Below are positions 6,475 through 8,890 of a stretch of DNA of 34,309 nt, one piece after another. The notes beneath the pieces are model-generated. The model was not told the origin of the DNA and made no database searches. It saw nothing but the letters and a program-made list of their open reading frames with translations. Numbering within the stretch: the stretch's first letter is position 1; the number at the start of each line of letters is the position of its first letter. Origin of the DNA: a bacterium. GTDB lineage: Bacteria > Omnitrophota > Gorgyraeia > Duberdicusellales > 4484-171. The position numbers and the translations under genes were made by a program. The DNA is taken from NCBI GenBank assembly GCA_021796115.1, contig JAJYOP010000019.1, positions 1 to 34,309 on the forward strand, in the 5' to 3' direction.

Positions 6475-7803
6475 ATGTTTTCTAAACTTTCTAAGTTCGA
6501 CTTCATCTTCTGGACAATTCTTGCAATTTTTGTCATCGCCATAGGTTTTACTCTTGCGCATCGCGATGGCAGGGATTTAAAAGTCGGGTTGTTCGGCGTA
6601 GAGCAGGTATTACAGAAAAAATCCCCTTATGATAACCCAAGCGACCCTAATCGCACAATCTTTCGCTATGCACCCGGAATAACTATCCTAGAATATCCAT
6701 TTCTTTTTAAAGCTAAAATGGTTGAGCCTTCTACCTTAGGCTTCGAAAATATAAAGCCATCGGTCTTTGCCTGGTATATTTTTGAAATTATCGCTATTTT
6801 TTTAAGCGCCAAACTAATCTTTAAGATTGCCCCGTCGCCATCAAAAGAATTGTCCCGGCGTAATTTAAAAATAGGCATGCTTCTGGCTTTACCTCTCATC
6901 GGTTATGAATTATCCAACAGCCAGAATAAGCTGGCAGCTCTTTTCTTTTTACTTACGGCAATCTGGCTGTTTAAGAAAAACCGGTGGTTTTTGTCGGCAA
7001 TTGCCTTTAACATTGCCATGACGATTTATATCCCGTTATCGTTTTTTGTTTTTTATTTTCTGATAAAGAGTAAAGGAAAATATATAATTCATTTTCTACT
7101 GGGGGCAATTGCAATATTTATCGTAATGCCTGCGCTTTTCTTTGGCTGGAATTTCAATATCTACCTGCTTAAGGAGTGGTATAGATGCAGTATTTCTCCG
7201 TTTTCCGCAGCGAATTCTTACGCGAGTTACGTTGATTTAAGGGTAAGCAGCCAGTCTTTACCAAGCGCAATAGGCAGGTTATTTGTTTTCGGCAAAACCG
7301 GTAATTTTAAATATCTTATTTCTCCTGAAGCGGTGCACACAATTATCCGGATATTTTCCGGTTTAATCCTTCTATTTTCGTGTATTGGCGCATTTTGTGC
7401 CCGTAAAAATGAAAAATTAGACGGCCTTGCTATTGCGACATTTTTGATTCTGGCTTTGATTATGCCGCAATATTGTATCTATTATACCTGGGCGTATTTG
7501 TTTGTGGTGTATTTTATAGTCTTTAATTATGTGAGTTTTCCGGCTGTTTCGTTACTTCAGAAAAAAGCTTTAATTATTTCGTTAGCTGTTTTATTCTTGT
7601 CAATTTGCCTTATCGGTATCCATTTCTTTAAACACTATTCTTTTATTTTCTGGGCGACATTTATTTTATGGGTTAAAATGGTAGCGGTAATGATAAATGA
7701 GGCCAACATTTTTCCAAGCCAAAAGCGAAGGGAAAATGTTAGTGCGAATTACCCCCACACCAATTATTTTAATATGTTTTATATGTATATACTAAAAAGT
7801 TAA
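6475..7803 (+). CDS. GT87/DUF2029-like polytopic glycosyltransferase
   Basis: A 442-residue membrane protein with roughly 10-12 hydrophobic segments, resembling the GT87 family of polyprenyl-phosphate-mannose-dependent mannosyltransferases (DUF2029). The large loop after TM1 with AHRDGRDLKVGLFGVEQVL and SPYDNPSDPNRTIFRYAPG (residues ~28-70) fits the family pattern in which an early loop acidic residue is catalytic. The GT2 gene downstream could make the lipid-linked sugar donor, a coherent pair. The natural C-terminus appears to be lost: after the last TM the frame reads through a hairpin and the left inverted repeat of a GIY-YIG unit, adding about 30 foreign residues (from NIFPSQKRREN onward) and ending at the nonsense codon inside the nuclease gene. 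Confidence 0.7.
   Translation: MFSKLSKFDFIFWTILAIFVIAIGFTLAHRDGRDLKVGLFGVEQVLQKKSPYDNPSDPNRTIFRYAPGITILEYPFLFKAKMVEPSTLGFENIKPSVFAWYIFEIIAIFLSAKLIFKIAPSPSKELSRRNLKIGMLLALPLIGYELSNSQNKLAALFFLLTAIWLFKKNRWFLSAIAFNIAMTIYIPLSFFVFYFLIKSKGKYIIHFLLGAIAIFIVMPALFFGWNFNIYLLKEWYRCSISPFSAANSYASYVDLRVSSQSLPSAIGRLFVFGKTGNFKYLISPEAVHTIIRIFSGLILLFSCIGAFCARKNEKLDGLAIATFLILALIMPQYCIYYTWAYLFVVYFIVFNYVSFPAVSLLQKKALIISLAVLFLSICLIGIHFFKHYSFIFWATFILWVKMVAVMINEANIFPSQKRRENVSANYPHTNYFNMFYMYILKS
7705..7740. repeat. Hairpin at the 3' end of the GT87 coding region
   Basis: AACATTTTTCC (7705-7715) pairs with GGGAAAATGTT (7730-7740), 10 of 11 positions, with a 14-nt loop. It immediately precedes the inverted repeat of the GIY-YIG unit and may be its outer boundary. 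Confidence 0.6.
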
Positions 7804-8047
7804 AAAGACCAAGACTTATATATAGGATTTACTAACGATCTAAATAAGAGAATAGAAGAACACAGTAACGGTTACGTTACGTCAACAAAATCAAGAAGAC
7901 CGTTAGGATTAGTTTATTGTGAAGGATATAAATCAGGCAAAGAAGCTCATAAAAGAGAGGAGAATTTAAAATTACATTCAAGAACCCTCGCCCAATTAAA
8001 AAAGCATATTAAAGAAAGTTCAAAATCATTGGTGTGGGGTTAATTCG
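7745..8047 (+). mobile_element. Inverted-repeat-bounded GIY-YIG nuclease unit
   Basis: CGAATTACCCCCACACCAAT at 7745-7764 is mirrored at 8028-8047 with 19 of 20 positions matching. The 303-bp unit contains only a GIY-YIG reading frame, and the right repeat encodes the nuclease's last four residues and stop. Outside the repeats are hairpins on both sides (7705-7740 and 8053-8131). The layout suggests a small mobile or formerly mobile unit; mobility is inferred. Confidence 0.65.
7774..8043 (+). pseudogene. GIY-YIG family endonuclease with an in-frame nonsense codon
   Basis: Conceptual translation gives 89 codons of a single-domain GIY-YIG nuclease (UvrC N-terminal/YhbQ-like). It begins MFYMYILKS, then a TAA at 7801-7803, then KDQDLYIGFTNDLNKRIEEH and further on RRPLGLVYCEGY and KREENLK. 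The catalytic hallmarks are present: the YxYIL and LYIG strands, the arginine in LNKRIEEH and the glutamate in REENLK. The stop replaces a residue where CAA (Gln) would fit, so a single C-to-T change would explain the break. Downstream of the stop the frame is completely intact to the TAA at 8041-8043, which points to very recent inactivation, recoding, or an assembly error. Such nucleases cut DNA structures and are found in repair and mobile elements. The gene has no evident ribosome binding site. Confidence 0.8.
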
Positions 8048-8052
8048 GTTAC

Positions 8053-8131
8053 GCAACTTTTCTGCGCCATGTCTGTCTACCAGGATGCCCTGTTGGGTTG
8101 CCCTTCGGGCAGTCTAGGCTTGAAAAGTTGC
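8053..8131. repeat. Inverted repeat with inner hairpin before the GT2 gene
   Basis: GCAACTTTTC (8053-8062) pairs perfectly with GAAAAGTTGC (8122-8131). Inside is a short GCCC-TTC-GGGC hairpin (8100-8110). The unit lies between the GIY-YIG element and the GT2 start, and accounts for the spurious upstream extension of that reading frame (ATG at 8069). Confidence 0.65.
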
Positions 8132-8140
8132 TACCTCATC

Positions 8141-8890
8141 ATGAAAACACAAAGTCTTTCCGTTGTCCTGATTGCGCACAACGAAGAACAAACTATCGGG
8201 CAAATGGCCTCTGGAATGCTTGAGGCTTATCCGGATGAAATTTTGGAAGTCGTCGTGGTCGACGATGCAAGCACCGACAAAACCGCGACAATAGTCGAAG
8301 CGCTTATGGCTAAAAATCATAAGCTGCGGCTCGTGAGAAGAGTGCCTCCCTGCGGAGTGGGGCGGGCGCTAAAAGACGGTTACAAAAACGTAAGTGCCTC
8401 TGCAGAATATATTATCTCGATGGATTCCGATTTTCTCGAAAATATCAAAGAAGTGTGCGGGTTGATTAATAAAATCGATGAAGGCTGTGACGGAGTTATC
8501 GGATCGCGCTTTATTGCCGGCGGTAAACTGATTAACTACCCGCGGCAGAAAAAAATCATGAATCGCTTGTTTCACATTATCGTAAGAACTTTATTCCGAA
8601 TTAAACAGCACGACCTTACTAACAATTTCAAATTATATAAAGCATTAATTTTTAAAACCCTGCCCTGGAAGAGCACCGGCTATTCCATGAACGCAGAAAC
8701 AGGCATATTGCCCATACTTGCCGGCTATGATATAAAGGAAGCGCCGGTCTCCTGGATTGGCCGCACCGAAGCCATGGGAGCGTCGAAGTTTCGTCTTTTT
8801 AAATCAGGCTTAAACTACGTCAGTGTTATTGCGCACAGTTTTTGGTTTTTGTTGCATAAATTTGCATATGCAAAAAAGAAAATTGACTGA
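8141..8890 (+). CDS. GT2 glycosyltransferase, dolichyl-phosphate-mannose synthase-like
   Basis: A 249-residue cytoplasmic GT-A enzyme that probably transfers a sugar from a nucleotide donor to polyprenyl phosphate. Motifs: SVVLIAHNEEQTIG (residues 7-20), VVVVDDASTDKT (37-48), the DxD-type SMDSDFLEN (93-101), and the acceptor-side region NAETGILPILAGYDIKEAPV with WIGRTE. A short C-terminal hydrophobic stretch may touch the membrane. The ATG at 8141 is the first giving a normal family N-terminus; the open frame from ATG 8069 reads through an inverted repeat and is rejected. No Shine-Dalgarno is seen. Its likely partner is the GT87 protein upstream, which would use the lipid-linked sugar. Confidence 0.88.
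   Translation: MKTQSLSVVLIAHNEEQTIGQMASGMLEAYPDEILEVVVVDDASTDKTATIVEALMAKNHKLRLVRRVPPCGVGRALKDGYKNVSASAEYIISMDSDFLENIKEVCGLINKIDEGCDGVIGSRFIAGGKLINYPRQKKIMNRLFHIIVRTLFRIKQHDLTNNFKLYKALIFKTLPWKSTGYSMNAETGILPILAGYDIKEAPVSWIGRTEAMGASKFRLFKSGLNYVSVIAHSFWFLLHKFAYAKKKID

Follow-up and report, generated by a model that had tools for sequence, protein, structure and literature searches.

A palindromic unit with a disrupted GIY-YIG gene

The window, i.e., the whole stretch of 34,309 nucleotides that was analysed, carries a mobile unit of composite type at positions 7695–8139, between an upstream host gene of the GT87 type (6475–7694, plus strand; PF09594, E 3e-9) and a downstream host gene of the GT2 type (8141–8890, plus strand; PF00535, E 2e-24). 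From left to right, the unit consists of an outer end AAATGA (7695–7700), conserved as the left end among composite units, a hairpin formed by AACATTTTTCC and GGGAAAATGTT (7705–7740), the left arm CGAATTACCCCCACACCAATTATTTT of an inverted repeat (7745–7770), a GIY-YIG frame (7774–8042, plus strand; PF01541, 51 bits), the right arm of the inverted repeat (8022–8047), a second hairpin formed by GCAACTTTTC and GAAAAGTTGC with a further repeat in its loop (8053–8131) and an outer end CTCAT (8135–8139) that adjoins the GT2 start codon at 8141. Units in other genera are built in the same way. When positions 7693–8142 were folded as a single strand, an outer stem with three arms was obtained (z −4.9 relative to shuffles).

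Several features had been noticed in a preliminary description of this DNA made from the sequence alone. The inverted repeat, described there as 20 bp long, is real and longer: the arms span 26 nt, match at 24 of 26 positions (92% complementary), and their score was not equalled in any of 200 shuffles of the flanks. The right arm does, as proposed, code for the C-terminus and stop of the frame (..SLVWG*, stop at 8040–8042), and the hairpins reported on both sides fold with z scores of −2.5 (left) and −3.0 (right). The only gene in the unit encodes a PF01541 GIY-YIG protein, and the reported lack of a transposase was borne out: no Y1 (PF01797) HUH transposase is encoded. Two other identities considered for the unit or its palindromes were dropped, an anti-phage defence system since PADLOC gave no match, and integron attC sites or “GTAG” REP tags after inspection by eye.

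The GIY-YIG frame is indeed a single PF01541 domain, but an in-frame TAA at 7801–7803 had been overlooked, and the copy is a pseudogene. The same codon terminates the GT87 reading frame, which enters the unit as the preliminary description had it; the fusion, however, takes in only the first 9 nuclease codons and yields no working nuclease. What the window contains is a small insertion element in a decayed state, consisting of palindromic ends and one gene, that of a single-domain GIY-YIG nuclease.

Related copies and dispersed repeats in the same genome

Targeted searches of the window's own assembly (1.72 Mb in 43 contigs, 88% complete) retrieved six GIY-YIG matches. A second copy of the window unit, of the same architecture, is located on contig C22 and contains the same TAA plus further stops. 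Between the two frames there are 29 base differences, distributed evenly across codon positions, with 5 synonymous and 18 replacement codons, which indicates that both evolved without coding constraint. Since the window and sibling genes are broken by the same stop, the copies would have spread either in trans or while an active source was still present; the proposal that the window nuclease drives its own spread does not hold for these two dead copies, neither of which can do so now. A third relative of the window nuclease in this genome (G000:C13:20056-20298, 43% identity) has an in-frame stop too.

The palindrome CCCCCACACC..GGTGTGGGGG was also found without a gene at about nine places in the genome; roughly 30 further places have the flanking hairpin. 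Altogether 32 hairpins of the left-hairpin type were collected; they have 21 different stems, and their arms co-vary (mean pairing 9.8 compared to at most 5.8 for shuffled partners). The loop of the right hairpin contains, at 8066–8118, another repeat, CCTAGACTGCCC..GGGCAGCCCAACAGGGCGTCCTGGTGGACAGGCATGG, i.e., there are repeats within repeats; it recurs in hairpin loops at C17:14790, C25:25200, C4:129630 and C8:15850.

Inverted repeats around solo GIY-YIG genes of other genomes

The preliminary description had suggested that solo GIY-YIG genes may be packaged as inverted-repeat units, and had taken absence of the repeats around all other GIY-YIG genes as evidence to the contrary. We searched for such repeats in relatives, the close ones being Omnitrophota, and found them: an inverted repeat directly at the start and stop (score of at least 26) is present at 19 of 73 solo GIY-YIG loci, a score reached by 0.17% of 2920 control loci of the same shape. 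A scan of named genomes, with one subfamily as the query, gave a repeat (score of at least 24) at 73 of 80 loci, at least four of which were already in the earlier locus set, compared to 0.32% of controls. These 80 loci come from Omnitrophota, Patescibacteria, Planctomycetota, Desulfobacterota, a Woesearchaeote (an archaeon) and others, and their arms are mostly A[CT]CCCGTTAGAGA. For the subfamily to which the window nuclease belongs, 17 of 23 loci in the class have the repeat, and the window arm CCCCCACACCAATTAT recurs almost unchanged around related nuclease genes of six other genomes, namely five genomes of this search (G087, G096, G097, G135 and G146) and G004. The packaging of a solo GIY-YIG gene as a mobile unit is well supported, and the system is widespread.

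Many solo GIY-YIG genes have no inverted repeat. Among them is a second class, in which the nuclease gene is located immediately upstream of an intact tRNA gene and is itself preceded by a copy of the first part of the tRNA (about 15–90 nt) (L025, L034, L043, L085, L090, L093, L096, L108, L111, L112, L113 and L114); these loci look as if the nuclease gene had inserted into tRNA genes whose 5′ half was then repaired. Two loci (L030 and L263; G053, Omnitrophica CG07) carry a nuclease unit fused in frame with a prepilin-type N-terminus (..SVTGFTLIE..). A sub-threshold match to the c-di-GMP-I-GGC riboswitch (L022:1824-2017) overlaps a region near a nuclease unit.

Occupied and clean insertion sites

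A search of 58 relatives for the GT87 gene at the window's own site gave no orthologue, and we relied instead on pckA, which lies beside the C22 copy, and on five sites in another genus. In the congeneric species G001, pckA has the same neighbours and the unit is absent. Two species of one genus, G072 and G097, differ in the same manner at rtcB, nuoC, aroQ, parA and a membrane-protein gene: at each of the five sites, G072 contains a complete unit, and G097 has a clean junction. Since the sites in G097 and G001 are clean, it is the whole unit, hairpins included, that inserts.

These sites bear on a different account of the data, according to which the palindromes spread by other means and the nuclease acts as a homing endonuclease: it would cut a resident palindrome at its centre, and repair would then copy it into the break. 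Homing enzymes of the GIY-YIG type are well established, and palindromes outnumber gene-bearing units, as such an account would have it. It would also lead one to expect the sister species to retain the palindrome, yet at 5 of 5 sites neither gene nor palindrome is there, and the pckA site of G001 lacks the whole unit as well. The clean sites therefore make transposition more likely than homing into a resident palindrome, at least for the composite class, to which all of these sites belong, and the “homing-like” behaviour suggested in the preliminary description is disfavoured in that sense. Homing may still apply to the start-codon class of units described below, where gene-less and gene-bearing palindromes both show the same GA duplication at ATGA, a pattern that entry of the gene into an older palindrome would produce. 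On balance, we regard it as unlikely.

Gene-less palindromes, target duplications and start codons

The gene-less palindrome ACCCCGTTAGA..TCTAACGGGGT was found in 18 of the 58 relatives, with up to at least 28 copies per genome, and its reversed pattern, used as a control, in none of the 58. In a sample of gene-less palindromes, the flanking dinucleotides are mostly equal (AA/AA in 15, GA/GA in 14, TT/TT in 13, and others). Gene-bearing units have equal 2-bp flanks in 43 of 69 cases, compared to a permutation mean of 21.9 and a maximum of 31 in 5000 permutations. Many palindromes are placed in ATGA start codons so that the order is ATGA, palindrome, GA. In 25 of 27 gene-bearing cases (with one locus, L080/L245, counted twice), the right end provides the host gene with an in-frame ATG or GTG, and an in-frame ATG or GTG is likewise rebuilt by all nine gene-less non-tandem palindromes of G052. 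In three units (L027, L092 and L024), the unit's own nuclease starts at the host ATG. Start-codon palindromes of G052 (L178-L189) often stand in tandem with GA between each.

In the composite class, of which the window unit is a member, no significant target duplication is seen over 16 units; the insertion chemistry of this class may therefore differ from that of the start-codon class. Duplicated ribosome-binding sites (AAAGGAGTC, AGGAGG), considered as a composite-class target duplication, turned out to be single-site cases at chance level over the 16 units. A filler of ~90 nt in gene-less copies, considered as a remnant of the nuclease gene, is not derived from that gene, and this idea was rejected. 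A gene-less palindrome upstream of pckA in G014 (L239), ACCCAGCACTAATTTT, has the same arm as nuclease units of other genera (L040, L360, L361 and L366).

Another reading of the hairpins is that they represent a resident structured RNA or a translation-control leader, with the gene located there and not mobile as a unit. The units do directly precede ribosome-binding sites, and in G052 the right arm supplies the host gene with GGAGG plus GTG. A resident leader accounts neither for the clean sites in sister species nor for the 2-bp duplications and the tandem copies (L038 and L189), and a search of Rfam matched no family to the unit; we consider this explanation very improbable.

Pairing of nuclease and palindrome

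Over 109 units, protein similarity correlates with arm similarity (Mantel r 0.79), with the proviso that permutation does not fully correct for shared descent. Without the largest class, the correlation is r 0.51 (p 0.0005, n = 30, with the same incomplete correction), whereas in the same 30 units protein similarity is uncorrelated with the sequence just outside the unit (r 0.003, p 0.48). A single genome, G072, harbours three subfamilies, and each has its own arm. At the level of sequence, the repeat tracks the protein subfamily and the outer flanks do not. Some palindrome-bearing genomes (e.g., G021) yielded no close nuclease.

The pairing is informative with respect to a third account, in which the hairpins owe their mobility to an unlinked Y1 (RAYT/IS200-like) transposase or to a host recombinase, with the nuclease as a mere passenger. 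RAYTs are believed to move REPs, which are palindromes (PMC2817692, PMC8266576), and Y1 transposases are present in 46 of the 58 relatives, with one in the window's genome. A palindrome specific to each nuclease subfamily is, however, not expected of a passenger. Moreover, of the 13 Y1 genes for which a frame was read, 12 are flanked by inverted repeats of their own that are different, the nuclease-linked palindrome occurs in none of 20 Y1 stretches, and the Y1 gene of the window's genome has no such hairpin alongside. Four genomes (G040, G055, G001 and G002) have nuclease units and no Y1 match; two of them are 94% and 98% complete, and the other two are 84% and 77% complete. This account is more doubtful than homing. 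RAYT-like Y1 genes of the same phylum (L215, L219, L229, L231 and others) are flanked by palindromes of their own (GGGACAGACACC type).

We favour, at a probability of roughly two in three, the view that the element is IS-like, that its non-autonomous derivatives are palindromic, and that its sole gene, the nuclease, is the candidate for the mobilising role. Judged by the co-segregation of enzyme and palindrome, the nuclease is likely to fill that role.

The nuclease and a possible mechanism

Intact members of the family retain the catalytic residues Y5, Y16, R26, H30 and E62, and the nuclease fold is predicted with confidence (pLDDT 91). The solved structures nearest to the model are those of UPF0213 and of Slx1, a nuclease that cuts branched DNA; no match reaches E 0.001. 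I-TevI, which is also a GIY-YIG enzyme, leaves a 2-nt 3′ overhang (PMC5751168), and this fits since a 2-bp duplication would be expected to arise from such a stagger. The retained residues, the confident fold and the I-TevI stagger therefore make the nuclease the natural mobilising candidate.

A possible course of events is as follows. The nuclease would recognise its own palindrome, which may be extruded into a hairpin or cruciform, and would cut the target with a 2-nt stagger; the palindromic unit would then be joined in at the cut target. Gene-less palindromes would be mobilised in trans, like MITEs or REPs. In its strongest form, the proposal is that of a new kind of DNA transposable element with a single-domain GIY-YIG nuclease as its transposase. 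This enzyme would know its own palindrome, make cuts with a short stagger at start codons (ATGA) or ribosome-binding sites and act in trans on gene-less palindromes, and insertion would do no harm because the palindrome rebuilds the start codon of the gene entered; we judge the chances for and against this full form to be even.

Comparison with known systems and implications

A close parallel is provided by REP/RAYT systems (REPINs), in which a short gene lies between inverted palindromes, gene-less palindromes are dispersed, and enzyme and palindrome co-vary (PMC2817692, PMC3116915). The units described here likewise have a GIY-YIG gene between two inverted palindromes, the same palindromes dispersed, and co-variation of the two. 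They differ in that the enzyme is of the GIY-YIG and not the Y1 HUH type, and in showing target duplications of 2 bp and insertion into start codons; where the two systems occur together in one genome, their palindromes are different. Without a Y1 transposase and with inverted ends, the unit is distinct from IS200/IS605 elements as well. It shares with IS elements that have MITEs the inverted ends, target duplications (in the start-codon class) and gene-less derivatives, but lacks a DDE, HUH, serine or tyrosine transposase and encodes, in about 300–450 bp, a nuclease of 80–95 residues.

Free-standing GIY-YIG homing endonucleases (I-TevI, I-BmoI and phage Seg proteins) have the same fold and, when compared to intact members, the same catalytic residues. 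Unlike them, the nuclease of the unit is a catalytic domain alone, with no further DNA-binding domain, and resides inside its own palindrome; the units are found at many unrelated genes, and those of the composite class have no fixed recognition site and clean sites without a palindrome. Slx1 and UPF0213 (YhbQ-like) proteins, also single-domain and nearest in solved fold, are cellular or repair proteins and are, to our knowledge, not packaged between inverted repeats.

Small GIY-YIG genes are abundant in uncultured phyla, and we found no account of them, or of units such as those described here, in the open-licence literature of PubMed Central. If these genes are mobile genes of palindromic elements, their abundance would be explained, one of the repeat classes of these genomes would be accounted for, and a type of transposase would be added to the short known list. 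The rebuilding of start codons would be a specific and testable way for an insertion to remain harmless.
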